From NCBI GenBank assembly GCA_903909215.1, contig CAIVUX010000051.1:1-64000 (forward strand): a DNA stretch of 64,000 bases. The letters run 5' to 3'. Below, one piece after another: positions 4,986 through 30,646 of this stretch. This DNA is from an uncultured Ferrovum sp. GTDB lineage: Bacteria; Pseudomonadota; Gammaproteobacteria; Burkholderiales; Ferrovaceae. Each line of letters begins with the position of its first letter. The first letter of the stretch is position 1. Below the pieces are notes generated by a model. It saw nothing but the letters and a program-made list of their open reading frames with translations. It had not been told where the DNA came from and did not search any database. The position numbers and the translations under genes were made by a program.

Positions 4986-5951
4986 CTATGCGGGAAACTG
5001 GTTGCGCAGCTCTTCACCAATTTCAAAAATATCCCCCACAATGCCATAGCGCGCAATGTGGAAGATGGAGGCCTTGGGATCAGTATTTACTGCCACAATG
5101 TTTTCCACATGTTTCATACCGGCCATATGCTGCACCGAGCCTGAAATGCCCATGGCAATGTAGAGTTTACAATTAGCCGCTGTTTTTCCTGACTGACCCA
5201 CCTGACGAGACTTGGGTAACCAGCCCGCATCCGCGATAGGACGTGAGCAACCCAATTCGGCGCCCACGGTTTGTGCCAGCTCACGGAATTGCTCCACATT
5301 GTCTTCTTCGCCCACACCGCGACCAATAGACAAAATAAATTCGGATCCTGGAATGTCCACATCCCCACCACCCGCGGCTTCAATGTATTTTTTATGCTGA
5401 CCGCGAGCCGGTGTGGCGGGTGCATCCATTTGAGTGACTGTGGGAGAGCCTGCTGCATCAATGGGTTTGCACACATTGGCACGGAAGGTCACTACCACGG
5501 TGCTCTTCCCCGGAAAGTCCACTTCCACATTTAATTTCTGACCGTAACCACCGCGCGTGGCCACTAAGGCGCCCGCGTCAAACTCTACTTTAAAAGCATC
5601 GGTGGCCAAACCCAAGCCAGTCTTTGCGGCCAATGCGGGTGCGTAAGCCAAAGAGTTAACACTGTGTGGCAACAACACCAAGGAAGGGTTCTTGGCGGCA
5701 ATCAAAGCCGCCACTGTGGCCTCATAGGCATCGGGGTCAAATTCCACCACCGCGGACTTCACGCAAATCACTTCATCCACACCCTGCACGCTCAGAGCTT
5801 GCGCATACTTTTGTGGGTCGTTGGCGATAATGGCAACCGTAACGGGACCGGATGCTTGCGCTTTAACGCCTACGGCGACTGCTATCAGCTCCAAAGATAC
5901 GGGACGCAGTTCATCCATCCGGTGCTCTGCAATGACTAAAATTCCACTCAT
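4986..5951 (-). CDS. etfA: Electron transfer flavoprotein alpha subunit
   Basis: The FAD-binding subunit of ETF, carrying electrons from flavin dehydrogenases to a membrane quinone reductase. Its 321 residues end with the alpha-subunit signature, seen as SGKTAANCKLYIAMGISG followed by QHMAGM and VNTDPKASIF. The start MSGILVIAEH at 5951 is one base from the etfB stop, so the two are co-translated. Because the operon encodes two trimethylamine-dehydrogenase-type enzymes and a membrane ETF oxidoreductase, this ETF is probably dedicated to amine oxidation. Confidence 0.95.
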   Translation of the reverse strand: MSGILVIAEHRMDELRPVSLELIAVAVGVKAQASGPVTVAIIANDPQKYAQALSVQGVDEVICVKSAVVEFDPDAYEATVAALIAAKNPSLVLLPHSVNSLAYAPALAAKTGLGLATDAFKVEFDAGALVATRGGYGQKLNVEVDFPGKSTVVVTFRANVCKPIDAAGSPTVTQMDAPATPARGQHKKYIEAAGGGDVDIPGSEFILSIGRGVGEEDNVEQFRELAQTVGAELGCSRPIADAGWLPKSRQVGQSGKTAANCKLYIAMGISGSVQHMAGMKHVENIVAVNTDPKASIFHIARYGIVGDIFEIGEELRNQFPA

Positions 5952-5952
5952 G

Positions 5953-6747
5953 TCATACCCCTTTAAATTCTTGAATAATTTTAACCAGCCGTGCCACTTG
6001 CTCGGCGGGCGTTCCTTCAATCAATTCAGCCTGACCCTTGGCCGGCACATACATGCGCCGCACACGGGACAAGGAACCTGCTTCACCCACATCTGTGGCT
6101 GCTAAACCCAAGGCAGAAGGGGTTAACACGTCAATGGGCTTGGCTGCCGCTTGCTTAATGCCGCGCAGAGAAGCGTAACGGGGCACATTAATGCCCAATT
6201 GAATGGTGAGTACCGCAGGGCATTCTAATTCCACTTCTGCGTAGGTTCCGCCTTCTAGCTCGCGTTGCAAGGTGGCCATTTTGCTGCCCGGTGTGTAGTT
6301 GAGTAGTGACACTACGGCCGCATGGGGCCAGCCCAAAAAGGAAGCCGTGGCAATACCGGTAGCCGCATAAGAATGATCGGAAGCCTGCACGCCGGCGAAA
6401 AGCATGTCGGGCGCTTCGTTCTTGGCTACGGCGGCAATAATGCGCGCAATAGCAATGGGGTCAGACCCCTCAACACTGTCATCCCACACGCGAATGGCGC
6501 GATCAGCGCCCTTGGCTAAGCATTTGCGCAGTTCTTCGTCCACAGACTCAGGGCCCACGGACACCACCACCACTTCCACCTCACCACCCGCGGCTTCTTT
6601 AATTTTCATGGCCTCTTCGAGAGAGAAGTTGTCCCACTCGTTAAGATCATGAATTAAGAAATCGGGGTCTACGTCGCGCCCATCGGTGCGGATTTCAAAA
6701 TCATCATCCACCGCAGCCACTTGTTTTACAGTAACCAGTATCTTCAT
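5953..6747 (-). CDS. etfB: Electron transfer flavoprotein beta subunit
   Basis: The AMP-binding subunit that pairs with EtfA. The protein of 264 residues begins MKILVTVKQV and contains the ADRAIRVWDD and ECPAVLTIQLGIN segments typical of ETF beta. The start at 6747 was chosen because upstream in-frame sequence runs into the LRV gene and has no family similarity; AGGA sits upstream on the coding strand. A 44-base AT-rich gap separates it from the LRV gene. The REP-like GGGGTCAGACCCC word at 6457 is inside this gene, coding GSDP. Confidence 0.95.
   Translation of the reverse strand: MKILVTVKQVAAVDDDFEIRTDGRDVDPDFLIHDLNEWDNFSLEEAMKIKEAAGGEVEVVVVSVGPESVDEELRKCLAKGADRAIRVWDDSVEGSDPIAIARIIAAVAKNEAPDMLFAGVQASDHSYAATGIATASFLGWPHAAVVSLLNYTPGSKMATLQRELEGGTYAEVELECPAVLTIQLGINVPRYASLRGIKQAAAKPIDVLTPSALGLAATDVGEAGSLSRVRRMYVPAKGQAELIEGTPAEQVARLVKIIQEFKGV
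6457..6469. repeat. REP-like palindrome GGGGTCAGACCCC, solo copy inside etfB
   Basis: An exact 13-base match to the dispersed palindrome, read on the coding strand as codons for GSDP. No extra residues are evident, so the match could be coincidental. Confidence 0.4.
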
Positions 6748-6791: not shown

Positions 6792-8189
6792 TTATATTAT
6801 AGTGCCTGGAGTTTTTGGCATACCCAAGCGCCGTCCAAAATAACCATATACCGCAAACCTCACACGGGGATCGGGGTCTTGGTGCAGCTGCCAACGGTCC
6901 TCATCATGCAAATGCGGATGCCTCAACACCATACCCCGATGCAACGCGTAGGGGTCTTGCAAAATATTTTGCAACAGGGCGCGCGGTGCCATTTTATTCA
7001 AAATCACAGCGCGGCGCACATCCGGGTTTTCATGCTGCACCAACCGCTGCAACATGTGTTGGCTGGCGGCTGCATTCTGCGCAATCCCACTTAATACATC
7101 AGCCGAGGTTTCTCCTGCTTCCATCTGGTACAACACCTGAGCCGGCACGTCCGCTCGGTAGGCCACACCTGCGCGCACCCACTCGTTCTCATCTTTTGCC
7201 AATGCCGCCACCAAAGGGGCTGGGCAAGCTGGATTGCGCGCCACGGCACGGCGCACTTCCATCACCGCATCCTGTGCCAAGCGCTCTAATACTTCTGGCG
7301 CTGTAATGGCATTGCGTGCTACCACTTGTCGCACCCAATCATCATCATCCTGTGCCAACCAAGCTGCTGCAGTGACGGGCAAGTCCGGCCGCATAGCCAC
7401 CGCACGTCGCACCGCTTCAGCCTCATCACGGCTTAAAGCTGTTAATAGCGCCACCGCTGTGGCCGCATTACCCGCCGCCGCACGACGCACACTCCAATGC
7501 TGGTCAGTGCTCAAGGCCTGCAGCACAGGGCTGGGGGCGCGCACATTACCCGCCAGCTTGCGCCGTTGCAGCACCGTATTCGGTATGGCCTCCAGCAAGA
7601 CCTCAGGGCATTGCGGGTGACCCAAAATCTGTGCTGCGATGCCCTCTGTGGCCCCGGCCCATAAGTGCTGCAATACAGCGCTGTTAGAGGCCAAATTAAC
7701 CGCCAGCAGGGTTTGTAATGCGGCAATGCCACGCTGGGCTGCCAGCCCCAATACTTCCGGCTCTGCACCACTGTTGGCGCATAAGCCTTTTAAAACATCC
7801 AAATCTTGCTCTGTCTCAACCCACTGCAGCAACACCTTATGGGGTGTGGCGGGGTTAGCCACCAAATAACGGCGCAATCGTTGACGTTGGGCCCCAGCTT
7901 GGCTGCGCTGAAACAGCTTTTCCAAAACCACAGGAGCTGTGTTGCCATGGCGCGCCAATCGGGCATCCACGCTGGCATCGTTCAATGCAAACAACTGTTC
8001 CAACACGGTGGCAGGCGTTCCCTCCATTTGCGCCAACAACAGCGCTTGGCGTCGCTCACCCCACAAATCTTCCAACAACCGGCGCTGCGCAGTGTTTACC
8101 CAGGGGTGCAGCGCGGCGGCGGCGTATACGTCTTTTTTTTCCGTGGCATGGCGCACCAAATCAGACAGGTCTTTGGGCACCGTCATCAT
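6792..8189 (-). CDS. LRV/HEAT-like repeat protein in the amine-dehydrogenase operon
   Basis: A 465-residue, probably soluble all-helical solenoid. It is built from repeats of roughly 24 residues with the pattern VRR-x-VA-x-NP-x-xP-x-x-L-x-x-LA-x-D, clearest in the second half (for example VRQVVARNAITAPEVLERLA and VRRAVARNPACPAPLVAALA). This is the leucine-rich-repeat-variant pattern. The Cys-rich Fe-S domain found at the N terminus of the Azotobacter LRV protein is absent. Its ATG overlaps the stop of the upstream ETF oxidoreductase gene (TAATG) and etfB follows 44 bases later. A scaffold or assembly role for the ETF-oxidoreductase system is inferred from position only. Confidence 0.8.
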   Translation of the reverse strand: MMTVPKDLSDLVRHATEKKDVYAAAALHPWVNTAQRRLLEDLWGERRQALLLAQMEGTPATVLEQLFALNDASVDARLARHGNTAPVVLEKLFQRSQAGAQRQRLRRYLVANPATPHKVLLQWVETEQDLDVLKGLCANSGAEPEVLGLAAQRGIAALQTLLAVNLASNSAVLQHLWAGATEGIAAQILGHPQCPEVLLEAIPNTVLQRRKLAGNVRAPSPVLQALSTDQHWSVRRAAAGNAATAVALLTALSRDEAEAVRRAVAMRPDLPVTAAAWLAQDDDDWVRQVVARNAITAPEVLERLAQDAVMEVRRAVARNPACPAPLVAALAKDENEWVRAGVAYRADVPAQVLYQMEAGETSADVLSGIAQNAAASQHMLQRLVQHENPDVRRAVILNKMAPRALLQNILQDPYALHRGMVLRHPHLHDEDRWQLHQDPDPRVRFAVYGYFGRRLGMPKTPGTII

Positions 8190-10339
8190 TACACCGCCAC
8201 AGCTTCCTCTTCAGTGACTGTGGTTAAGGCCTCTTCAATCAATTCAATCAGTTCACGCACCACAAACTTGCCCTCATAACCACTGGTCTTCAAAGCATCT
8301 TCAAACATGGTGAGATCTTTGGGGCAAGCCACCACGAATACTTGCAGGCCTTCAATGGCACAGGCTTCTCGCATGCGATTTTGTGAAGGCTTTTCAGTGC
8401 CCACGGGGTCTGGAATCCAGATGCGTCCACCGCCCGCTCCGCAGCAGAAGGAGTTGTCGCGGTTGCGCGCCATTTCCACCAGCTCACAGCCCAAGGTTTT
8501 TAATATTTCACGGGGCGCATCAAAGCCCTTGTTAAAGCGGCCCAAATGACAAGGATCATGATACGTTACGCGATAATTTAGCAGATGGTCCAGTTTAATG
8601 CGGCCCTGGTCCATTAAGCGTTTTACAACGGTGGTGTAATGCTCAATCTCGTACTTGCCGCCAAAATCAGGATACTCATTCTTGATGGTGTTAAAGGAAT
8701 GCGGATCCGTGGTCACGATGCTCTTGAAGGTGCTCTTGTTGAGGGAGGCGATATTGTTCTCCGCCAGCAACTCATACAGTCCTTCTTCGCCCACACGGCG
8801 CACATCATTGCCGGCATTCATTTCATCTTCATAGAGAATACCAAAATCAATACCGGTGTTGTGCAGCAGGCGAGCAAAACCTTGCGTCACTTTTTGGTTG
8901 CGCGGATCAAATGAAGCGTAATCCCCCACAAACCACATAAGGTCCACGGGGTCTGTGCGCGCATCTTTTACAGGAAAGTCCAGCGCCTTGGTCCAGGTGG
9001 CACGTTTGCGTTTGGATTCCCCAAAGGAGTTGCCGGTCTTATGAATGGTCTGCAGGGTTTTTTGCAGCAGCGGATCCATCTCGCCCTCTTCCACCAACTT
9101 GCGACGCAATTGCACAATAATCGGCACATGTTCAATGGCCACCGGGCAGATTTCCACGCAAGCCATGCAAGTACGGCAGGACCAGAGGGTTTCCATAAAC
9201 ACTTGCCCCACCCCTTTGCCATGAACATTGAGTTTCACTTCATCGGGCAGCGCATTGGACTGCAAGGCGTTATTGGCAAACTCGCGCAAGCTTAAGATAA
9301 CATCACGCGGGGATAAGGGTGCACCCACCGCATTGGCAGGGCACGCTTCCTGACAGCGGCCGCATTTGGTACAGGCGTCTAGGTTCAGAAGATGCTTCCA
9401 CGTGAAGTCGGTGATGGTGTTGTAACCAATCTTTTCGCCCGTTAAATCCACTTTAGGCAAGCGTTGTGCCGCCAGAGGGTCGCGGAACATTAAGGAGCCC
9501 GTGGCGGTAAAAATATGCTTGACCTTGGTGAAAGGGATGAGCGAAATGAAAGTCAGTGCCAAGAGGCCATGGAACCACCAGAGGTTGGTGCGTAAAAGTC
9601 CTGCACCTTCTGCGCTTAAACCGGTAGAGGCCATGACTTGCGCCAGTAACGCACCCACCGGTGACCACCAGCGGTAATTCCACACATGGGGGTCTGACCC
9701 CAACCACACCAAGCGCACTGCTTCTAATACAAAACCAGTGACGCCAATGAAGATCATGGTCCATAGAAACGCCCAATCTTCGCGACGGTAAAAACTGCGA
9801 TCGTAATCCGCATCACCGGGTTGACGGTCCACGCGCTTATAATCCAGCTTAGGGAGCTTCATCCATTTGCGCCGATACATCATGTACAACATGCCAGAGA
9901 GCAGGCTTAAGCCCGCCAAGTCCATGGCCAAGGAAAACCACAGGTAAAAATCGCCATACCAGAACTTGTAGCCGAAGAAGCGGCTGGTGCCGTCATATTC
10001 CACGGTAATGGTGGCGGTGCCGATGAACAGCACCAGGAAGCCATAAAATATAAAACGGTGCGCGATACCTGCTCCGCGATCACGACGGGCAATGGTGCGG
10101 TGGCTTAATACCAATTGCGCCATTTGACGGGCGCGACTCCACAACTCATTCCAACTACCGGCGGACGCCCCACGACGGTACTTGCGAATTTGCACGTAAA
10201 AGCCCCAGCAAAAAATGCCAATGGCCGATAATCCCAATAGGTAAAAAAATTCAATCGTTGAAGGCGCAAAGCCTTCAAACAAAATTCGCGTAACCTCTTT
10301 CTGGTCACTCACGGCGGGACCTAAGAGCGCTACATCCAT
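8189..10339 (-). CDS. Membrane ETF:quinone oxidoreductase, cytochrome b / HdrD-like fusion
   Basis: A 716-residue protein. Residues 25-275 form a NarI-like membrane domain with several helices and possible heme ligands such as H80, H94 and H257. Two [4Fe-4S] motifs follow (C323, C326, C329, C333 and C388, C391, C394, C398). A C-terminal CCG-type domain has C597 and CCG at 632-634, while the first CCG copy expected near 500-515 lacks the cysteines. This architecture matches the membrane ETF:(mena)quinone oxidoreductases called EMO and differs from the soluble-type ETF-QO. It lies between the dehydrogenase genes and etfBA, so it probably passes ETF electrons to quinone. AGAGGT lies upstream of the ATG. 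Confidence 0.85.
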   Translation of the reverse strand: MDVALLGPAVSDQKEVTRILFEGFAPSTIEFFYLLGLSAIGIFCWGFYVQIRKYRRGASAGSWNELWSRARQMAQLVLSHRTIARRDRGAGIAHRFIFYGFLVLFIGTATITVEYDGTSRFFGYKFWYGDFYLWFSLAMDLAGLSLLSGMLYMMYRRKWMKLPKLDYKRVDRQPGDADYDRSFYRREDWAFLWTMIFIGVTGFVLEAVRLVWLGSDPHVWNYRWWSPVGALLAQVMASTGLSAEGAGLLRTNLWWFHGLLALTFISLIPFTKVKHIFTATGSLMFRDPLAAQRLPKVDLTGEKIGYNTITDFTWKHLLNLDACTKCGRCQEACPANAVGAPLSPRDVILSLREFANNALQSNALPDEVKLNVHGKGVGQVFMETLWSCRTCMACVEICPVAIEHVPIIVQLRRKLVEEGEMDPLLQKTLQTIHKTGNSFGESKRKRATWTKALDFPVKDARTDPVDLMWFVGDYASFDPRNQKVTQGFARLLHNTGIDFGILYEDEMNAGNDVRRVGEEGLYELLAENNIASLNKSTFKSIVTTDPHSFNTIKNEYPDFGGKYEIEHYTTVVKRLMDQGRIKLDHLLNYRVTYHDPCHLGRFNKGFDAPREILKTLGCELVEMARNRDNSFCCGAGGGRIWIPDPVGTEKPSQNRMREACAIEGLQVFVVACPKDLTMFEDALKTSGYEGKFVVRELIELIEEALTTVTEEEAVAV
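9688..9701. repeat. REP-like palindrome GGGGTCTGACCCC, solo copy inside the ETF oxidoreductase gene
   Basis: An exact copy of the dispersed 13-base palindrome preceded by an extra G. It encodes GSDP in a loop between predicted membrane helices of the oxidoreductase. Confidence 0.45.
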
Positions 10340-10419: not shown

Positions 10420-12642
<2,223 letters not shown>

Positions 12643-12660: not shown

Positions 12661-14886
<2,226 letters not shown>

Positions 14887-14893
14887 TTAATAA

Positions 14894-15679
14894 TTAACCT
14901 ACTACCAATTCAAATTTGCGCCAATCATTGATGTAATGGCTCAGTTCCGGCGCTATTTCCATGCTGCGCTCAAAGTGAATATGGCAAGCGGGCAGTCCTA
15001 AGGTTTGCGCCGCAGCAATCACCGCCTCCACAAGAGCGCGCGGACCGGATACATAAAAATGAGTCACGGGTGGTTGTGTGGCCATGAGGGCGTGCACATC
15101 CAAGCGTCGTCCTTCGCGTGAGGTATAGCTGTAAAAACGGTTGGCCGGCATGGACTGCGCCAGGGTTTTGGTAAAGATAGCCTCCGCTGCAGTGCGTGTG
15201 CTGTAGTGCAGTTCGTAATCGTCATCCGCGTCGGCCAATGCGGCGCAATGGGACAAGAAAGGAGTAACCCCCATGCCGCCGGCAATAAACACATGCTTCT
15301 CGGCATCCAAGGCCAAGGCCATGCCACCCATAGGTGCGCTAATCTGTAATGTCATGCCCACGGTGGCTGAATCATGCATAAAACTCGACACGCCACCCAC
15401 GCTGGTACCACGCCCCACCACAATGCGGTAATGATCGCGGTGATCAGGATGGCTGGTGAGGGAGTAAGGTTTTGATTTGATCTCGCCGTCGAGCGTTAGG
15501 TTGACGCTTACATGGCTGCCCGCACTAAAGGTGGGTAGTTGACCGCCCGCCACGGGCGTGAGAGCGAATTCTTTTACCTGCGGACTTAATTCATGAATAA
15601 GCGCTACCCGCACCAGAATTTCACACTGGGTTTGCGGCCAAGGCGCGCTGACACTGATTTCTGGTTTAATTTTTGACAT
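14894..15679 (-). CDS. FAD/NAD(P)-binding reductase lacking a 2Fe-2S domain
   Basis: A 261-residue ferredoxin-NADP-reductase-fold protein. The FAD-binding motif is KPYS (the family RxYS with Lys for Arg) near residue 70, and a GGMGVTPF nucleotide-binding loop lies near 135. In phthalate-dioxygenase-reductase relatives an HFER segment leads into a C-terminal plant-type [2Fe-2S] domain. Here HFERS is followed by only some two dozen residues without cysteine, and the next gene starts 37 bases later, so the domain is absent. As the first gene of the trimethylamine operon it may supply electrons to a partner ferredoxin or an amine monooxygenase encoded elsewhere. No strong ribosome-binding site is visible. 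Confidence 0.75.
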   Translation of the reverse strand: MSKIKPEISVSAPWPQTQCEILVRVALIHELSPQVKEFALTPVAGGQLPTFSAGSHVSVNLTLDGEIKSKPYSLTSHPDHRDHYRIVVGRGTSVGGVSSFMHDSATVGMTLQISAPMGGMALALDAEKHVFIAGGMGVTPFLSHCAALADADDDYELHYSTRTAAEAIFTKTLAQSMPANRFYSYTSREGRRLDVHALMATQPPVTHFYVSGPRALVEAVIAAAQTLGLPACHIHFERSMEIAPELSHYINDWRKFELVVG

Positions 15680-15853: not shown

Positions 15854-16888
15854 CTACTTGGTGGTGACCAACCCTTCTTTTGAGAAGAGCAACGGAACCC
15901 CTTTTTGGGTGGCCACTAAGGCTGTAATAGAAAGTCTGTCTTCACGCTGACCGGCCACAAATGTTTTGCCGTCGTCGTCGCTGGCCAATGACAAGCCATC
16001 AAGGCCTGCGGCAATAATTTTTCCATCGGGCAATTGCACCATGTCGGTAATGGAGCTGCGGGTAGTGAGGGTAACCTGCGCCCATTTTTTGCCATCATCC
16101 ACGCTGCGGAATAGGTTACCCGCCAAGCCGCCCATCAAGATGGTGCCGCTTTTTAAGGAAATACCGGTCCAGAAACTGCCGCGGCTGCCCGATTCAACAG
16201 GAACCCAGGTGGCACCTTTATCGGTAGAGCGGTACACCGTACCCGCTTCGGCAGCGATTAATAGTGTGCCTTTAGCGGTAGAAAACATTTTCAGTAAATT
16301 GCGATCGGCCTTAGCGCTATTTTTAGCAGCGGGCACTGTGAGCGCCTGCCAGATTTTGCCCCCATCATGAGTGGCCAAGAGCGTGGACCAAAGGCCCGCT
16401 GCAAAGCCATTCTGGCTGTCTGTAAAGAACGCCGTAAAAAGCGGACGGTCTTCGATTAAGTTGTCACGCTGCAAGGTCCAGGTTTCGCCGCCGTCAGTGG
16501 TGTGCAAAATAACGCCCCAGTGACCCGCCGCCCAACCCTCCTTGTCGCTGACAAAACTCACAGAGGTGAGCGTGGCACGCGTGGGCACAGCCTTGGCTTG
16601 ATGAAATTTAACACCATCATCAGAGAGTAAAATGACACCGCGGTCCCCTACGGTGACGATACGATCTCCTTCTCGTGTGACAGCCAACACGGCAGAAGTT
16701 AAGCTGCCCTCAGATATCACAGCAGGCATTTGCACCAAACCATTACCCACTGGCGGGCTGGCTACGGCAGGCGCATCCGCCGCAGGTACTGGCGCAACAG
16801 AATCTGCCGCGTATAAAGAGAACGAAACCAATAGCCCCGTAAAAGCAACCACCGTTTTAAGTGACATTTTATTTTTCATGTTTTTCAT
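15854..16888 (-). CDS. Exported YCF48/BNR-repeat beta-propeller protein
   Basis: A 344-residue protein with an N-terminal signal peptide (hydrophobic run ending at about residue 28 with YAADS). The mature part repeats WAAGHWGVILHTTDGGETW-like units, the pattern of YCF48/photosystem II stability factor HCF136-like propellers. Such proteins are often encoded beside RND (MMPL-type) transporters and DUF1302/DUF1329 genes, as here, and are thought to help assemble or serve an envelope export system. The start lies 5 bases after the RND stop, so the two are co-translated. Confidence 0.85.
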   Translation of the reverse strand: MKNMKNKMSLKTVVAFTGLLVSFSLYAADSVAPVPAADAPAVASPPVGNGLVQMPAVISEGSLTSAVLAVTREGDRIVTVGDRGVILLSDDGVKFHQAKAVPTRATLTSVSFVSDKEGWAAGHWGVILHTTDGGETWTLQRDNLIEDRPLFTAFFTDSQNGFAAGLWSTLLATHDGGKIWQALTVPAAKNSAKADRNLLKMFSTAKGTLLIAAEAGTVYRSTDKGATWVPVESGSRGSFWTGISLKSGTILMGGLAGNLFRSVDDGKKWAQVTLTTRSSITDMVQLPDGKIIAAGLDGLSLASDDDGKTFVAGQREDRLSITALVATQKGVPLLFSKEGLVTTK

Positions 16889-16893
16889 TACGC

Positions 16894-19254
16894 CTAATGC
16901 TGAAGAATGCCAGGAAGGCGAACCGGTCCACGACGTGGGAACAGACGCTCCAAGACCACGGAAATAGCGGGCAGTACCGTCATGGCCATAACCAAGTTAA
17001 TCATGAACATAAAGGCCAACAGTTCGCCCATATCCGCCTGAAACTTCAGTTGCGAGAAGGACCAGGTGGCCACACCAATAGCCAAGGTAATGGCCGTGAA
17101 GATGGTGGCCATCCCTACTTCCAGAATGGAATGCTCCAATGCTTTCACAATGGGTTGCCCACCAGCCAAGTGCAGCTGTAAGCGACTGTAGATGTAGAAG
17201 GCGTAATCAACACCAATCCCCACCGCCAACACCATCACGGGCAGCGTGGCCACGGTTAAGCCAATGTGCAACTCTTTCATGAACCAGTAACCAATGAAGG
17301 TGGCCACCGTAAGCGGCAAGCAGCAAGCAATTACCGCACGGAAGTCACGATAAGCCAAGAACGTGAGAATGGCGATGGCCGCATACACGTAGAGCATCAT
17401 GGGCAATTCACTCTTCTCCAATTCCTCATTGGTAGCCGCCAATACACCGGCGTTGCCTGAGGCCAGACGAATCTTTACGGTGGAGAGCTTGTTCTTATCA
17501 CGGAAATCTTTGGTGGCGTTGATCACACGCTTAATGGTGGATGATTTGTGATCGGCCAGGTAAATATGGACTGCGGACATGCTGCAATCGGAACTGACAA
17601 AGCCACGCACGCGAGAAATTTCTGTAGCCATAGCCGCGTAGTTGCCCGCATCAAAGGGCACCACCGCCATCTTGGGGTTGCCCTCGTTATAGCCTTCGCT
17701 GTAAGTGCGCATCATGCTGGCAAAAGAGGTAATGGAAGTGACTCCCGGCACATGCTCCATGGCATCCACGTAATCGTCCTGGTATTTTCCAATGGCCACA
17801 TCACGACAGGACTCAGGGGGCGACTCAAACACCACGCTCATCCAATCCAGTCCAATGTTATAGCTGCCGGCAATGGCCACTGCATCACGATTAAAGCGTG
17901 AATCGGCACGCAGTTCAGGGGCGCCGGGTTCTAATGTACCCACCACACGATCACGACTTTGCCAAACCGCAACAACAAATACCACGGCCGTAATAACCGT
18001 AACAATCACCGCGTTGCGCGGTTCTGCAATACGGGCCAAGACACGTAGCCAGTTAGAACGCCGTTCACGAGAGAGCATGGCTTTTTCGGCAAACTCTTTG
18101 GTGAAGTTAAAGTATGAAGCGGCAATGGGCAGCATAATCAAGTTGGTAATGATCTTGTAGCCCACACCAATGGAAGCTGTGATGGCCAACTCGCGTACCA
18201 TGGGGATAGGGATCAGAGTTAAGGTAATAAATGACACAAACGCGGTTACTAAGGCCAATACACCGGGGATCAGCAAGTTGGTAAAACTTAACCGTGCGGC
18301 CTCTACTGTATTTTTACCGTGGGCGATTTCACGCACGATGTAGTTGATCTGCTGCACACCGTGCGACACCCCAATAGCAAAGATGAGGAATGGCACCAAC
18401 ACTGCGAGCGGGTCGAGGCCAAAACCCAACAGGCGCAATGTGCCAAACTGCCAGACCAGAGAAGTGAGCGAGCAGACAATCGGTAAAATAGTTAGGCGAA
18501 TAGAATGGCTGTACCAATACACAGCAAGTGCTGTTAAAAGCAATGCAATCCCACAGAACTCCAGCACGGCTGAAGCGCCATCTGCAATATCACCAATCTG
18601 TTTGGCGAAGCCCGTCATCTCAATTTCAAATTTGTCGTTCTCAAACTTCTTGCGGATATTGTCTTCCAGCAAACGGTTAAACGCCACGTAGTCCATGCGT
18701 TTGCCATCGCGACCATATTCAGCCAGTTCCGCCACAATCATGGCGCTCTTCTGATCATTGGACACCAAGGTACCCACAAAGCCACCCTGATTGGTGGCGC
18801 GTTGAATTTTGGTAATCAATTCCGGTGTTAGGCCTTCCGGGGCAATGGTGCCGTCAATAATGGGATCCGCGCGAAAACCATCCTCTGTAACCTCATTCAC
18901 AAAACTATTGGGGGTCCATAAGGACTGCACGCCCAAGCGATCCACATTGGGCAGCAAGATAACGGCTTGGGTGACTTGATAGAGTTGGGTGAGTGCTTCT
19001 TTATTCCAGATGGTGCCGCTGCGAGCCTTTACCACTACCGTAAGACGGTTGGCGCCAAAGAGCTGGTTGCGGTATTTCTGGAAGGTTTGAATATATTCAT
19101 GCCCAATCGGCATTTGCTTTTCGTAGCCCGCCTCCATTTTAAGCTTGGTGGCAAAGACCATCATTAACGCAGTAAATACCACAAGACCAATTAAGATGGG
19201 CAGACGTCGTTTGAAGAACAACGTTTCGAGCTTTTGAACAATAATAGCTAGCAA
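16894..19254 (-). CDS. RND superfamily (MMPL-type) transporter
   Basis: A large inner-membrane protein with the RND layout: one transmembrane helix near the N terminus (RRLPILIGLVVF), a large periplasmic loop, a block of about five helices, a second helix and loop, and a final helix block. It ends about 786 residues after a TTG at 19254. This start was preferred because the upstream frame crosses a strong hairpin at 19334-19363 and has no helix or signal. It is third in a DUF1329-DUF1302-RND-YCF48 operon. The substrate is unknown; hydrophobic molecules are the usual guess for this subgroup. An alternative in-frame ATG at 19371 cannot be excluded. Confidence 0.85.
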   Translation of the reverse strand: MLAIIVQKLETLFFKRRLPILIGLVVFTALMMVFATKLKMEAGYEKQMPIGHEYIQTFQKYRNQLFGANRLTVVVKARSGTIWNKEALTQLYQVTQAVILLPNVDRLGVQSLWTPNSFVNEVTEDGFRADPIIDGTIAPEGLTPELITKIQRATNQGGFVGTLVSNDQKSAMIVAELAEYGRDGKRMDYVAFNRLLEDNIRKKFENDKFEIEMTGFAKQIGDIADGASAVLEFCGIALLLTALAVYWYSHSIRLTILPIVCSLTSLVWQFGTLRLLGFGLDPLAVLVPFLIFAIGVSHGVQQINYIVREIAHGKNTVEAARLSFTNLLIPGVLALVTAFVSFITLTLIPIPMVRELAITASIGVGYKIITNLIMLPIAASYFNFTKEFAEKAMLSRERRSNWLRVLARIAEPRNAVIVTVITAVVFVVAVWQSRDRVVGTLEPGAPELRADSRFNRDAVAIAGSYNIGLDWMSVVFESPPESCRDVAIGKYQDDYVDAMEHVPGVTSITSFASMMRTYSEGYNEGNPKMAVVPFDAGNYAAMATEISRVRGFVSSDCSMSAVHIYLADHKSSTIKRVINATKDFRDKNKLSTVKIRLASGNAGVLAATNEELEKSELPMMLYVYAAIAILTFLAYRDFRAVIACCLPLTVATFIGYWFMKELHIGLTVATLPVMVLAVGIGVDYAFYIYSRLQLHLAGGQPIVKALEHSILEVGMATIFTAITLAIGVATWSFSQLKFQADMGELLAFMFMINLVMAMTVLPAISVVLERLFPRRGPVRLPGILQH

Positions 19255-19333
19255 GAGACACTCACTTTTTTTAAAATTAACACTGAGTAAGCGGGTTTTA
19301 TTAAAACGAGTCTTACGCAGGACGCCGCAGAAA

Positions 19334-19363
19334 TGCAACAGTGCGCATTTGCGCACTGTTGCA
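19334..19363. repeat. Strong 14-bp hairpin between the DUF1302 and RND genes
   Basis: TGCAACAGTGCGCA at 19334-19347 and its exact reverse complement at 19350-19363 are separated by two T residues. The minus strand has no U-run after it, so intrinsic termination is unlikely. It may stabilise the DUF1302 message or lower expression of the RND gene downstream. Confidence 0.75.
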
Positions 19364-19416
19364 CCCAACATTATTCGGTTACACAGCAAATCATGCTGCT
19401 GTCTCAAACCCTACAA

Positions 19417-21114
19417 TTAGAAGTTGTAGGTCACGAAGCCACCGATAAAGTCACGATCGATGTACGGTGAGTTGTACGGGCTGCTCGACCCAAAGAAAGT
19501 GGTGTAGTTCAAACCGGCCTGCCACTTTACCGGGTTCTGGTTAAAGAGCAAATAGAAGTTAGCATTTTGCGCACCAGACATGTAATTGGCGTTAAAAGTC
19601 GGGGTTACGCCAGAGATGGCACGGTAATAGGTGACCCCTGGAGTGACCTGCCAACCGGGGACGAGTGAGCCATCATAGGTCCAGTTGAAGTCGGTGGTAA
19701 TGCCGTAGGAGTTGGCAGTACCCAAAGGGGAAAAATACGAGCCGCTTGGTGTGCCGACCGTTGCGTAATATCCCGCATCCGGCGTTTGAGTGCTTGAAAT
19801 GTTATTGGTTAAACCAGGAAAGCGTATGGCCACGAACTCTGTGGTGGAATAGGCAATCTGTGCGCCACCCAACCACTTCAATATGGAACCAGAGTTACTG
19901 GGGGTCAACTCCAGTTGCCCGGTGATATGAGCCTGATAATGCTGCATATCTTTCCATTGATTGCCTCCATTACCGTCGGCAATGGATACGGCATCTCTCG
20001 GACGCCATGAAAGCTCACTGCCAATCGCCCAGTCACCCAATGGGAAATTAACACTGGCCCCAAACAGTTTGCGGTTTTCCAAATACTTCCACGTCCAAGC
20101 ACCGGCCTGAGTGGGGTCATACAAAGCCACGGGTGACTTGTCATGATAGTTCAGGAAATACAGCCCTGAATCCAATGTGGTGCCTTCTGGCTTGTAATGG
20201 AACGCAATGCCATACTGACCGCTGCTCTTAGGCTTTATGTCGTTACCAAGCCCATAGTTATTTCCGTTGCTACAGCTTTTACCAAGCCCGGAAGCTGCAG
20301 CGCCTACAGTGCCGCCTGCTGCAGAGCATCCTTGAGGATCAGATCCTGTGTAAAAGGGTTGAGCCCCGCGACCAAAGATATCCGAGTTAGACCAGAATGT
20401 TCCCACAGGTGGGTAGAGGTTTTTATTCCACTGGAACTGATAGTAGCTATCAAAGCTCAAGCCGCCGCCAATACCCGTGGCAAAACTCAGCATGGGCGCT
20501 GGCAAAATAGCTTCTTTAATCTGGGTGCCCGGCATAGCCAGTTTCTGAAAATCCAGAGCCATGGTAGAGCTGATACCCCCAATACCATACAAGCTTTCAC
20601 CCCAGTTAAGCACTTGATTGCCTAAGCGCCAGCGTGCACTTTGCCCATTAAGCGAGAAGTCCTTACTGACCCATAAATCCAGCAGTCGAACATCGCGCCC
20701 CACTTGTGACAGGGCGTCTCCTGAAAGAGGTGTTCGTTCTGTGTTACCTGCTACAAAATCATACAGGTAGCTGGCGCGTGCCATGAACTTATAGCCATCC
20801 GGGAACTTCAACACCATTTCATTGGTGCCCTTCAGGTTTAGGGCAAAGAAGTCACCCTTGTTATAGTTCAGGTCACCATTGTCGCCGGAACTAAAATTAG
20901 AGTTTGACGTAGTGCATCCACCCTTAGATGTCTGGTCACCGACGATATTACAATTCTGGTTGAGCAGTCTGTAACCAAACCCTGCGGTAATCTGCGAATC
21001 GATGGACCCCGTTACAGAGCCATCATCACTTTTTACCGGAAATGCATATACCGCACTGGTGGCCAGCAGCAGGGCTGCTGCCAGCATCCCCTTTAAATTT
21101 TCTTTCATGATCAT
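19417..21114 (-). CDS. DUF1302 family outer-membrane protein
   Basis: A 565-residue protein with a signal peptide (MKENLKG then a hydrophobic run ending VYAFP) and a body rich in alternating beta-strand sequence, ending in a terminal Phe as in outer-membrane barrels. Family members are co-encoded with DUF1329 proteins and RND pumps. GAGGGG followed by ATGATCATG supports a start at 21114 rather than the longer reading to 21138. It probably forms the outer-membrane channel of the four-gene system. Substrate unknown. Confidence 0.85.
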   Translation of the reverse strand: MIMKENLKGMLAAALLLATSAVYAFPVKSDDGSVTGSIDSQITAGFGYRLLNQNCNIVGDQTSKGGCTTSNSNFSSGDNGDLNYNKGDFFALNLKGTNEMVLKFPDGYKFMARASYLYDFVAGNTERTPLSGDALSQVGRDVRLLDLWVSKDFSLNGQSARWRLGNQVLNWGESLYGIGGISSTMALDFQKLAMPGTQIKEAILPAPMLSFATGIGGGLSFDSYYQFQWNKNLYPPVGTFWSNSDIFGRGAQPFYTGSDPQGCSAAGGTVGAAASGLGKSCSNGNNYGLGNDIKPKSSGQYGIAFHYKPEGTTLDSGLYFLNYHDKSPVALYDPTQAGAWTWKYLENRKLFGASVNFPLGDWAIGSELSWRPRDAVSIADGNGGNQWKDMQHYQAHITGQLELTPSNSGSILKWLGGAQIAYSTTEFVAIRFPGLTNNISSTQTPDAGYYATVGTPSGSYFSPLGTANSYGITTDFNWTYDGSLVPGWQVTPGVTYYRAISGVTPTFNANYMSGAQNANFYLLFNQNPVKWQAGLNYTTFFGSSSPYNSPYIDRDFIGGFVTYNF

Positions 21115-21153
21115 CACAGTCCCCTCAAAACATGTCATTTAAGAAGTAACTTC

Positions 21154-22536
21154 CTAGCGCTCACTAATGGCGCGCAGGGTATCCGGTGTGTAAAAGCTAG
21201 AGCTATACACGTTTTCTTTGCTTTCTAGGAAGTACTGCACATCCTTCTTCTGACCTAAGACAGAATAATCAGACATGTAGCGACCGCTTTGCAGGTTGTA
21301 CTGAATGAACGGGTTGTAGGTACAAATACCGCCCAACTCCCAAACCGGAATTTGCCAAGCTTGGCGCACGTTCCACAGCTTGCCGCTGGAATCGTAGTCT
21401 TCTGCAATCAAGATGTTCCAGCTGTCTTCATCCAAGTAGTAGGTGCGTTTCGGTGCACTGTGGCGCATCCCTGCGCGAACGGTGGCTTCCACTACCCACA
21501 CGCGGTGCAACTCATAGCGGCCCAGATCAGGATTCACTTCATCCTTCAGGTAGGCGTCTTTATGTGGAGTATTAAAGTTGTACATCTTGAACGCGTCATG
21601 AGGAATGTAGATCTCCTTTTTGCCGGCCAATTTGTAATCGAAGCGATCTAAGGTGCTCCAGAACATGTTCTGAATGTCCACCATGTACTCGTTCTCGAAA
21701 CCAATCAGCGGTGCATCATACGCGTAGGCCGGTAAGCGGCGTACACGACGTTGCCCGGGGAAGTAATAGCTGGATTCTGCAATCTTATCCAGGTAGCTGA
21801 TGTAAACAAGGGCTTGTCCCACCAAAGCCACTGGTGCGGAGTATTTGTAGTAGCCATACAACTCCACCTTGCCAGAATCCTCTACATTCTTGGCACCCTT
21901 CGCTCCCCATGGGTAAAACTGGGTCAGTTCCCAATCGTAGAACACGTAGTCGTTGGTTCCGCGACGGGGGCTTAATACGCTGCCGCCGTTTTGAAAGGTA
22001 AAGCCCACGCCTGTGGGGCGCAGTTTTTGGTTCCACATGGCTTCAGCGCCATTGGCAGGGATTGGGAAGGGTACGCCGCCGGCCTTGGCATGATCCAAGC
22101 TAAAGCCATCGGCGTTCATCTTGGCTTCTAACGCATTCATCTTGGTGCGCTCTTCCACAGAACTGGGCACTACGCAATTGCGGTGCGATGGATAAACATC
22201 CATACGGTAGTTGGGCACTTGTTTGACCAAGGCCACCTGACCGGGAGTCATTTTGCTGGCGTATTGGTCTACGTTGGCAGGGGTAATTGTGAAGAGGGGT
22301 TTTTCTTCTTTGGTCATCTTAGAAAAGCCAGCGCGTTCTTTGCCCCAGGCCCAACCGGGCAACGCTTCGTCGGCTTTACCGCTCCACGCGGGGATGGTGC
22401 CGTCCTTATTGCCCGCTTTTTCAGCGCCAATAGGCGTCAAATCTTTCCCCAAGCGGTCTGCCTCTTGCTGCGATGCCGCAAATGTCATATCGGCACATAG
22501 TGCTGCCAGTACAAAAATTAGCCATTTCTTACTCAT
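21154..22536 (-). CDS. DUF1329 family exported protein
   Basis: A 460-residue protein with a signal peptide (MSKKWLIFVLAALCADMTFA). The mature N terminus carries the family-typical QQEADRLGKDLTPIGAEKAG and a GTIPAWSG segment. DUF1329 proteins are periplasmic or outer-membrane associated and are encoded with DUF1302 and RND genes. The start at 22536 has a GGGGGG upstream; the longer frame to 22641 is Arg-rich and unlike the family. It is the first gene of the operon, and the 190 bases upstream to 22726 show no other gene. Confidence 0.85.
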   Translation of the reverse strand: MSKKWLIFVLAALCADMTFAASQQEADRLGKDLTPIGAEKAGNKDGTIPAWSGKADEALPGWAWGKERAGFSKMTKEEKPLFTITPANVDQYASKMTPGQVALVKQVPNYRMDVYPSHRNCVVPSSVEERTKMNALEAKMNADGFSLDHAKAGGVPFPIPANGAEAMWNQKLRPTGVGFTFQNGGSVLSPRRGTNDYVFYDWELTQFYPWGAKGAKNVEDSGKVELYGYYKYSAPVALVGQALVYISYLDKIAESSYYFPGQRRVRRLPAYAYDAPLIGFENEYMVDIQNMFWSTLDRFDYKLAGKKEIYIPHDAFKMYNFNTPHKDAYLKDEVNPDLGRYELHRVWVVEATVRAGMRHSAPKRTYYLDEDSWNILIAEDYDSSGKLWNVRQAWQIPVWELGGICTYNPFIQYNLQSGRYMSDYSVLGQKKDVQYFLESKENVYSSSFYTPDTLRAISER

Positions 22537-22726
22537 TTCGCCCCCCGTTCGTAATAACCCATATAAAAAATTTTTAATCGCTTCACGCAGTCGTGCGCAC
22601 GCACCGCGAACAGCGTTATCTAACCATGCGCTTCCCCTCAAATATATTGTTTTAAGGGGTTACTCCCAAATGATTACATTCTATTACGGGGGCAGTGTAC
22701 CTCAAGACGTGCACTGCAGGTGAGGG

Positions 22727-27787: not shown

Positions 27788-29476
27788 TTAGTACACCGCA
27801 AGACTATGCCCCACATAAATAACCGTGGCCGCCGCAATCAAGGTGACGTAAGGCCAAATGCCGGCGCTGGAAGTCGCTCCGTCAGCGCTTAAATGAAGGT
27901 CTTCCATCATGGCTGGTGGAAACTGTCCCTTGTCTTGAATGTAATGACGGAACACAAAGATAGGTACTATCAACGCTGCACAACTCAGACCAATTACCAA
28001 TGTACCCGCACCCCAAGTGTCTGCCCCCATTCCCATGAAGAATAAGTTGGCGAAGCCCAATACAGCACCCATGGTGAGCAACCAACCCGGGGCTTTGAAG
28101 GGGCGCTCCCATCTGGGGCGGTCCATGCGGTGAATCCAACCCGCATTCAGGTTTAAGAAACTAAAGGTGATGTAACTGATGTTGGATATGGCCAGCACAA
28201 ACACGTAATCCGACATCAGTAGCAGCAGCAAGTTAAAGACAAAGTTGGTCCACATGGCTCTCGTCGGTGCACCATGGGCGTTTACATGGGACAAGTACTT
28301 AGGCAACCAACCATCCACGGAGGCTTGATACAGCGTGCGTGAAGAACCGGACATGGAGGTCATGAGAGCCAAGAGCAGCGCCAGCACCAACATAATCACC
28401 AGTACGTTTTCAATCCAGCGCGCACCACCCACCATGTGCGACATGGCTTTAGCCACACCCATGCCGCTGTAGATGTCCGGTGCCAGCATGCCGCTATACA
28501 CCGCGGGGGTGGTGATATTACCCGCCGCATCCAGCACCGCAGGAGTCACTAATTCACCTAGCCCTAAGGAACCCTGAAAGGCCAAAGGCACCACGGTAAA
28601 CACCACCAAGCATAAAAGGCCCGAATAAAAAATGGCTCTGAAAGTGTCTTTCTTGGGGTCTTTAAATTCGGAGGCGTAACAAACAGCAGTTTCAAAACCG
28701 TAAGTGGACCAACCGGCAATAAACATACCCCCAGCAATGAGCGTCCAACCCGCCATGTTCCAACTGCCATCCACCACATTACCCACAGCATCATGGGTCA
28801 TGGGCAGCAGCGGCCAGAAATGCACTTTGGGCATATCGCCGGTGAAAAGGGGCACGAAACCAATCAACAGCAAAGGCACCAAACCTGCAATGCCCAACAA
28901 CATGGTGGCCTTGCTAGAACCCAGAATGCCGCCGTTTTGAACTTTAAAAATAACCAGCAGGAGCGCCAAACCCAACAAGAAAGTGGAATTAATACGCAGC
29001 GACAGGCCTTGCTTCAACAAACCCAAATCCAGTAAGGTAATTTGCCACGTATTAATCAGCGCATCAGGAGCGAAGAGCGCGTTTAAGATGTATCCCGCGG
29101 CCAGGCCTGAACCAATAGCCAACACGGGCGACCATGCCATCCAGTTGCACCACACAGAAACGGGGGCCACCAGCTTGCTATAGCGCACCCAGGCAATGGC
29201 GCCATACACCGAAGCACCACCCGACTTATTGGGAAACAGACCCGCAATTTCAGCGTAGGTAAAAGACTGCAAAAAACCAAAGCAAATAGAAACCGCCCAC
29301 ACAATCCATGAGGGTTTACCTACCGTAGCCGCAATGGCGCCGATGGTGAACAACACCAATGCCGGAACACCGCTGGCCACCCAAAATGCGCCGGTCCAAC
29401 TAATTCTGCGTTGTAAGGTGGTTCCGTCCTCAGATGTGGACACTTCCCGCTTAATAATGCCTTCTTCTACGCTCAC
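27788..29476 (-). CDS. APC-superfamily amino acid/amine permease
   Basis: An inner-membrane transporter of 562 residues with about twelve hydrophobic helices and the APC signature near helix 1 (SGVPALVLFTIGAIAA) and a GFETAVCYASEF segment. It is the last gene of the N-methylglutamate operon and may import an amino acid, methylamine or a pathway intermediate; substrate is inferred only from position. The GTG at 29476 was chosen because GAGGAG stands 6 bases before it. A longer frame to 29539 would translate through a REP-like inverted pair and is rejected. Confidence 0.88.
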   Translation of the reverse strand: MSVEEGIIKREVSTSEDGTTLQRRISWTGAFWVASGVPALVLFTIGAIAATVGKPSWIVWAVSICFGFLQSFTYAEIAGLFPNKSGGASVYGAIAWVRYSKLVAPVSVWCNWMAWSPVLAIGSGLAAGYILNALFAPDALINTWQITLLDLGLLKQGLSLRINSTFLLGLALLLVIFKVQNGGILGSSKATMLLGIAGLVPLLLIGFVPLFTGDMPKVHFWPLLPMTHDAVGNVVDGSWNMAGWTLIAGGMFIAGWSTYGFETAVCYASEFKDPKKDTFRAIFYSGLLCLVVFTVVPLAFQGSLGLGELVTPAVLDAAGNITTPAVYSGMLAPDIYSGMGVAKAMSHMVGGARWIENVLVIMLVLALLLALMTSMSGSSRTLYQASVDGWLPKYLSHVNAHGAPTRAMWTNFVFNLLLLLMSDYVFVLAISNISYITFSFLNLNAGWIHRMDRPRWERPFKAPGWLLTMGAVLGFANLFFMGMGADTWGAGTLVIGLSCAALIVPIFVFRHYIQDKGQFPPAMMEDLHLSADGATSSAGIWPYVTLIAAATVIYVGHSLAVY

Positions 29477-29503
29477 TTTGGGCTCCTCAAAATCATTGCG
29501 TAT

Positions 29504-29535
29504 AGGGGTCAGACCCCCCCAGGGGTCTGACCCCT
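29504..29535. repeat. REP-like inverted pair of GGGGTCAGACCCC
   Basis: AGGGGTCAGACCCC at 29504-29517 and AGGGGTCTGACCCCT at 29521-29535 form an inverted pair with a 3-base spacer. It fills the 66-base gap between the GcvT-like gene and the permease. The left copy is preceded by TAT, giving the 16-mer shared with 3206 and 55715. Confidence 0.85.
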
Positions 29536-29542
29536 TCACCTA

Positions 29543-30646
29543 TTATGCTCCGCGCTTTTTCTTTTCAGGATCATCAAAGGGCAAGGGATGCGCGGTTGCT
29601 GTGCATTGTATCTTAGGTCCGCGCACTTCTAACTTAACGCCCTCTTTGGCGTATTCAGGCTTCACTTTAATAATGGCCAATGATTTTTTGAGAATAGTGG
29701 AATACATGGGGCCGGTGATTTTGCCCACTTCTTTGCCATCGGCAAAGAGCAAGGCGCCCGATTCGGTGGGTTGATCGGTATCGGCAATCAAACCATAGAG
29801 CAATACTTTTTCTTTACCCATGCGCGCCATGAGGGCCGCCTTACCACGGTACTCGGCGGTTTTCTTTTTAGAAACCGCAAAGCCCAAACCGCATTCCCAA
29901 GCATCGTTCTCTTCGGTCATGTCGTAGGGGTAGAAGAATAAGGCTGATTCCACACGCACCATGTCCAAACAATTAAACGAACAAGGAAGAATACCGATGG
30001 ATTTTCCTTTTTCAAGGATGTTGTCCCAGATGTGTCCCACATCATCGCCTTTGGCAAAAATTTCGTAGCCCCGCTCGCCGGAATAACCGGTGCGAGAAAT
30101 CATGCAATGGCGGCCAAACAAGGTAGTGGATACTTGATGAAAATATTTCAATGATTTGAGATCAAATGGCGTGTATTCATTTAAGAAATGGACCGCCCGG
30201 GGGCCTTGCAACGAAATGTTGTGCAAGTCGTCATCAAACAAGATGCTGACGTTGCGCCCTTCTGCGGATTTGGTGAGTTGCGTTAAGGCGGTACCGCTGC
30301 CATGCACCATGATCCAGTTGTTGGGTGAGATGTGATACATGATGCAGTCATCGGTGAAACCGCCGTTGTCATCGCAGATGACGGCATAAGCAGACTTTCC
30401 TGGGTAGATAAGGTTAAGATCGCGGGTGCAGACATGATTCAACACGGCCAATGCATCAGGGCCTGTGATATGGACTTTGCGCAAACCCGACACATCAAAC
30501 AAACCAGCCACATTGCGCACAGCGCGATGCTCGGCGTTCACGTCCTGGGCATAGGCCCAAGCGGTATCCATGCCGTTCCAATCGCCCAAGGGCGAGCCCA
30601 ATGCGCGGTGACGCGCAGCCAGTACTGATTGTCTTGGGGAAGCCAT
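29543..30646 (-). CDS. GcvT-family aminomethyltransferase/demethylase
   Basis: A 367-residue protein of the glycine-cleavage T-protein fold, which transfers methyl or methylene groups from substrates to tetrahydrofolate. The family segment with the catalytic acidic residue is visible as NGGFTDDCIMY (about 94-104), and SRTGYSGERGYEI and DMVRVESALFFY are conserved blocks. Glycine-cleavage H and P genes are absent, so it is probably a dedicated C1 transferase. Its position downstream of the N-methylglutamate genes and folD suggests moving C1 units of methylamine origin onto THF. Similarity to the DMSP demethylase DmdA is only at fold level. GGAGA precedes ATG 30646. Confidence 0.82.
   Translation of the reverse strand: MASPRQSVLAARHRALGSPLGDWNGMDTAWAYAQDVNAEHRAVRNVAGLFDVSGLRKVHITGPDALAVLNHVCTRDLNLIYPGKSAYAVICDDNGGFTDDCIMYHISPNNWIMVHGSGTALTQLTKSAEGRNVSILFDDDLHNISLQGPRAVHFLNEYTPFDLKSLKYFHQVSTTLFGRHCMISRTGYSGERGYEIFAKGDDVGHIWDNILEKGKSIGILPCSFNCLDMVRVESALFFYPYDMTEENDAWECGLGFAVSKKKTAEYRGKAALMARMGKEKVLLYGLIADTDQPTESGALLFADGKEVGKITGPMYSTILKKSLAIIKVKPEYAKEGVKLEVRGPKIQCTATAHPLPFDDPEKKKRGA

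Follow-up and report, generated by a model that had tools for sequence, protein, structure and literature searches.

A gene for a helical repeat protein of the LRV type lies inside an operon for trimethylamine dehydrogenase (TMADH), a membrane iron-sulfur oxidoreductase (here FeS) and the two subunits of the electron transfer flavoprotein (ETF), in a window of 64,000 nucleotides from an uncultured Ferrovum sp., and it is well supported that the LRV protein is a member of this TMADH/ETF electron-transfer module. Taken singly, TMADH, LRV repeats and oxidoreductases of the EtfD-like kind are all familiar. We found no paper in the open-access literature linking an LRV or HEAT repeat protein to TMADH or ETF, and no name for the protein either there or among the NCBIfam models. 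As for its role, we propose, giving the proposal an even chance, that the protein catalyses nothing itself and acts as a docking scaffold dedicated to this module, keeping ETF at the membrane oxidoreductase.

The LRV gene and its operon

The genes of the module, all on the minus strand of the window, are as follows.

4986..5951, minus strand: EtfA, ETF alpha subunit, 321 aa (Pfam ETF and ETF_alpha)
5953..6747, minus strand: EtfB, ETF beta subunit, 264 aa (Pfam ETF; start taken from the sequence)
6792..8189, minus strand: LRV/HEAT-type alpha-solenoid gene, 465 aa, about 17 predicted helical hairpins (open reading frame and translation, Pfam, AlphaFold2, neighbourhood)
8189..10339, minus strand: FeS, EtfD/DgcB-like membrane Fe-S oxidoreductase, 716 aa (Pfam CCG and Fer4; PDB 9ojn; cysteine map)
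10420..12642, minus strand: second TMADH-like paralogue, between TMADH and FeS, with H172D and D267N (phmmer, residue table)
12661..14856, minus strand: TMADH, 731 aa (phmmer to 1djn/2tmd; residue table)

The LRV gene starts with ATG and encodes 465 residues; open reading frame and Pfam here agree with an earlier sequence-only reading, which had left out the strand. The FeS stop overlaps this start by one base (TAATG), and EtfB begins at 6747, 44 bases past the LRV stop, followed by EtfA from 5951, so that both the coupling to the membrane ETF oxidoreductase and the position directly before etfBA are as that reading described them. Pfam recognises LRV repeats (PF01816, 1.1e-14, 54.1 bits against a gathering cut-off of 21.6) as well as HEAT repeats (PF02985, 1.2e-13), and the sole PDB match by sequence is 1lrv, the Azotobacter vinelandii LRV protein, with which the window protein shares LRV-type helical repeats of about 26 residues. 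It differs from the 1lrv protein, however, in being about twice as long, in lying in an ETF operon and in having no Fe-S module detectable by Pfam; its three cysteines are scattered over 465 residues, and by Pfam and cysteine count it lacks the N-terminal cysteine-rich 4Fe-4S domain of the Azotobacter type, which 1lrv carries, just as had been claimed from the letters. Pfam detected no catalytic, enzyme or DNA-binding domain either, and the protein has no NCBIfam family.

The AlphaFold2 model, made with 23 sequences (mean pLDDT 95.3), consists of 34 helices in about 17 hairpins with no other elements, which is an all-helical repeat superhelix like that of 1lrv (Foldseek 2.5e-5; VIA Z 14.7, rmsd 6.7 over 220 residues). 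Foldseek and VIA also match this model to alphaRep binders and to the PP2A scaffold; these matches are generic for helical repeats, speak in a predicted structure for fold class only, and were rejected as a functional clue. The fold class shared with the PP2A A subunit, alphaRep and other HEAT scaffolds is one of solenoids acting by partner binding. The most conserved portion of the LRV protein is residues 301-400.

The FeS protein matches the solved iron-sulfur-binding reductase 9ojn at 3.8e-69 and is homologous to mycobacterial EtfD, which links ETF to the quinone pool (PMC13083937). A membrane part, two 4Fe-4S motifs and CCG domains are all found in it by Pfam, by comparison with 9ojn and in a model of medium quality (pLDDT 68, with membrane or hydrophobic helices visible) that was used for topology alone. 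Mycobacterial EtfD has cysteines in both CCG halves (clusters D1 and D2), whereas the window protein has none between residues 399 and 596 and carries C597, C632, C633 and C672 in the second half, so that one of the two cluster sites is kept. In being without the D1 cysteines of the first CCG half it is like DgcB and FadF and unlike EtfD (PMC13083937). The Pseudomonas DgcA-DgcB system of dimethylglycine catabolism likewise combines an OYE-type demethylase with an EtfD-like oxidoreductase, both flavoenzymes upstream of FeS in the window being OYE-type, and ETF is the presumed electron donor of DgcB (discussed in PMC13083937).

The amine dehydrogenase that the sequence-only reading had placed in the operon proves to be TMADH, with a full-length match to 1djn/2tmd of 1460 bits. 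By comparison with 2tmd it has the bowl Y60/W264/W355, the triad Y169/H172/D267, S74 and W105, together with the flavin Cys30 and the cluster Cys345/348/351/364. The operon is like the Methylophilus TMADH-ETF pair (1djn, 2tmd, 1o94) in having a full-length TMADH with all key residues, and ETF downstream; that pair was presumably solved and studied as TMADH plus ETF only (1o94/1o95), with LRV and FeS outside the picture. In the paralogue two positions of the triad are changed (H172D and D267N) but the bowl residues Y60, W264 and W355 are all present, and its open reading frame is listed from a TTG, while an ATG at about 12612 matches the known TMADH length.

Elsewhere in the window lie genes for a TMAO permease and an aminomethyltransferase as well as folate-linked C1 genes, and its glutamate-synthase-like, type III glutamine-synthetase-like and sarcosine-oxidase-like genes resemble the N-methylglutamate pathway, which makes the setting one of methylated-amine catabolism. 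The aminomethyltransferase (29543-30646, minus strand, 367 aa), adjoined by the TMAO permease (27788-29539), is like the C-terminal half of TMAO demethylase only (profile 400-760 of 763), and many TMADH modules have genes of this kind beside them. Also recurring near TMADH modules (L036, L039, L040, L043, L044, L046, L049, L050 and L066) is a flavin reductase that has a DmmA-like domain (14894-15679, minus strand) and possibly serves as the reductase for a dimethylamine monooxygenase. Genes of the Ycf48-like, MMPL transporter, DUF1302 and DUF1329 types form a cassette directly upstream of the TMADH operon (15854-22641, minus strand).

Recurrence and evolution of the LRV gene

The order TMADH-FeS-LRV-EtfB-EtfA recurs in alpha-, beta- and gammaproteobacteria, in dozens of genomes. 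In the window's own order of bacteria, a genome of another family has FeS-LRV-EtfB-EtfA with 4-base overlaps, at 31% identity. In a scan of one genome per species, 24 of 26 LRV loci have FeS upstream, while L056 begins at a contig edge and L067, a weak match (29%), stands outside the module. The LRV start is mostly at most 30 bases from the FeS stop and often overlaps it. A random scatter of LRV homologues would have told against the sequence-only reading; in the neighbourhood survey they lie beside the oxidoreductase, bar the one 29% match.

When 150 Methylophilaceae genomes were queried with the FeS protein at E 1e-100, FeS was found in 23 and LRV in the same 23, always adjacent and with EtfB next (Fisher 1.4e-27, kinship ignored). 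Among 369 genomes of Gammaproteobacteria, FeS at an identity of at least 61% is present in 6, the window's included, and LRV in all of them; one genome with FeS at 39% has no LRV, and no genome of the Pseudomonas family rises above the FeS threshold. The 289 genomes of Alphaproteobacteria include 6 with FeS, namely the survey centre G504, which has LRV, four in which FeS is fused to EtfB without an LRV orthologue, and G897, where it is unfused and likewise without LRV. One more fusion is found in the family of G499 and two more LRV systems in the order of G504. These counts overstate the number of independent events because the species are related, and the survey centres G488, G499 and G504 are not independent since they were picked for carrying LRV.

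On plasmids, the seven best records are identical for LRV, FeS (63-74%) and TMADH (73-86%), and no record with a FeS or TMADH homologue of lower identity contains an LRV orthologue. The annotated plasmid neighbours show the same order, the LRV product being annotated as "hypothetical protein". In the window's own family the LRV gene is absent from all 31 relatives searched, and hence the module in the window genome looks acquired. Weak LRV/HEAT matches outside the module were rejected as orthologues, being local, at most about 52 bits and from generic repeat proteins, and so was a Deinococcus plasmid match (H8), a repetitive protein outside the module context. Altogether the association of LRV with the module is due to more than chance, and the recurrence beside the oxidoreductase is what gives its membership of the module, already suggested by the sequence-only reading, its good support.

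Two further observations concern individual loci. The LRV gene is in pieces in two Methylophilaceae MAGs (L063; L065/L090), and these broken frames, which are probably assembly or sequencing errors, were excluded from the rate tests. In the Paracoccus group, the loci L059:1755-7652 and L057:5496-7688 carry an enzyme with Q60/T74/F105, which by its residues we take to be of the dimethylamine-dehydrogenase type; in L057 it occupies the TMADH place ahead of FeS-LRV.

Purifying selection acts on the LRV gene (dN/dS 0.07-0.38), yet it evolves faster than the other four operon genes compared, with a mean identity to the window of 38% for LRV, 80% for TMADH, 67% for FeS, 65% for EtfB and 60% for EtfA. 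Among these genes it is EtfB whose distance matrix agrees most closely with that of LRV (r 0.92, partial 0.63); LRV does not track FeS or TMADH (TMADH partial r -0.22). The correlation with EtfB is robust to leaving groups out and to resampling taxa and sites, and it is a hint of contact, of a kind that also arises without contact.

Fusions at the FeS-EtfB slot

Six in-frame fusions of FeS into EtfB were found, on a Shinella plasmid and in five alphaproteobacterial genomes.

FeS::EtfB fusion loci, in-frame: L037:7767-11069; L093:502-3543; L094; L095; L096; L112

The open frames run from 902 aa (ended by the contig) to 1110 aa, and the linkers, 74-181 aa in the five measured, are Pro/Ala-rich, most of them after a helical-looking start. 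None of the six cases has an LRV gene. All six fall into a single clade of the FeS tree (100/99), whose neighbour is a clade of 33 with LRV present in 32 and lost once, and three more distant FeS proteins have neither LRV nor fusion. Between FeS and EtfB, one clade thus has the solenoid gene and its sister clade a covalent tether.

Next to the fusions stands a dehydrogenase with only 49-54% identity to TMADH, and in the Shinella enzyme the residues F60, T169, D172 and F355 are found, from which we judge that the dehydrogenase of this clade probably uses an amine other than trimethylamine. Cys30 and the cluster cysteines are kept in the Shinella enzyme. As the fused clade has a different dehydrogenase, architecture is confounded with substrate class. 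Moreover, G897 (L091) has TMADH-FeS-EtfB-EtfA with neither LRV nor fusion, and no LRV orthologue was found anywhere in its genome, so that a tethering device is not strictly necessary.

A possible docking role and its alternatives

Electrons in these systems flow from TMADH to ETF, to the EtfD-like oxidoreductase and to quinone. In the proposed docking scheme, TMADH would oxidise trimethylamine and hand the electrons to ETF (EtfAB), and ETF would next have to get to the Fe-S clusters of the EtfD-like oxidoreductase, which feeds the quinone pool. The solenoid would bind ETF, probably via EtfB, and also the cytosolic side or the C-terminus of the oxidoreductase, making ETF a tethered shuttle, not a free carrier; in the sister clade the same tethering would be covalent, as oxidoreductase-linker-EtfB. 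Both the binding partners and the tethering are what we infer from several lines of evidence: the fixed order TMADH-FeS-LRV-EtfB-EtfA across three proteobacterial classes, the co-occurrence of FeS and LRV (23/150 Methylophilaceae; seven plasmid records), a pure helical solenoid whose nearest PDB entries are 1lrv and binding or scaffold proteins, and distances that track EtfB (partial r 0.63) together with purifying selection. The sequence-only reading had suggested a structural or an assembly component; the natural fusion in the LRV-less sister clade, exactly at the LRV slot, favours the structural role, in the form of docking.

Published work on mycobacterial EtfD points the same way. ETF was not retained in the EtfD structure, which the authors suggested was due to weak binding, and in their AlphaFold3 prediction ETF touches EtfD at a disordered C-terminal region, of which DgcB and FadF have a short version or none (PMC13083937). 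The window FeS ends shortly past its last domain, and in the present FeS family what comes after the C-terminus is either the LRV gene or EtfB. An acidic FeS tail lying in a basic LRV groove was considered and dropped: the FeS C-terminal tails are acidic, that of the LRV-less G897 included, and the net charge of LRV spans -13 to +20, hence it is unused as evidence.

The main rival to a docking scaffold, which we regard as possible though rather unlikely, is that LRV is an assembly or maturation chaperone for the noncubane cluster of the oxidoreductase, for the 6-S-cysteinyl-FMN or 4Fe-4S of TMADH, or for the ETF flavin. The position inside the operon and the fast evolution fit it equally, and there is a precedent in the HEAT-repeat protein Met18, which acts in Fe-S assembly (PMC10728100). 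However, the fused FeS proteins retain their cluster cysteines and the Shinella enzyme its Cys30 and cluster cysteines without any LRV, which argues against a general need for LRV in maturation, so that an obligatory role in maturing FMN or clusters was ranked lower; moreover, a module without the gene exists in G897, and a chaperone does not predict a swap for a covalent FeS-EtfB link.

It is improbable that the solenoid docks TMADH, instead of ETF, at the membrane near the oxidoreductase. Systems with LRV do have true TMADH (65-87% identity), and those with more distant dehydrogenases have no LRV, but the LRV gene sits between FeS and EtfB without adjoining TMADH, its distances follow EtfB and not TMADH, and L057 keeps it with the Q60/T74/F105 enzyme in the TMADH place. 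Still less credible, and in our judgement very improbable, is a passenger or regulator riding on a mobile catabolic module with no part in electron transfer. The module is indeed patchy, plasmid-borne in several hosts and missing from the relatives of the window genome, yet even in deeply diverged systems the gene stays in its place within the FeS-EtfB pair, unlike the genes around the module, which vary; selection on the gene is purifying, and no DNA-binding or enzyme domain was detected in it by Pfam.

With the docking scaffold as the preferred reading, we further suggest, tentatively and with somewhat less than an even chance, that the LRV family belongs, as an integral subunit, to the ETF:quinone oxidoreductase module of trimethylamine respiration: an exchangeable solenoid tether, channelling ETF from the dehydrogenase to the membrane acceptor and back, whose place is taken in the sister clade by fusion of EtfB to the oxidoreductase. 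TMADH and its ETF are a textbook interprotein electron-transfer pair, usually studied as freely meeting partners. A conserved extra component, together with natural fusions that seem to bypass it, would mean, if true, that the membrane acceptor keeps hold of its carrier inside the cell. For mycobacteria the question of how EtfD-type oxidoreductases recruit ETF has been raised in print (PMC13083937), and the LRV operon would offer a direct genetic handle on it.
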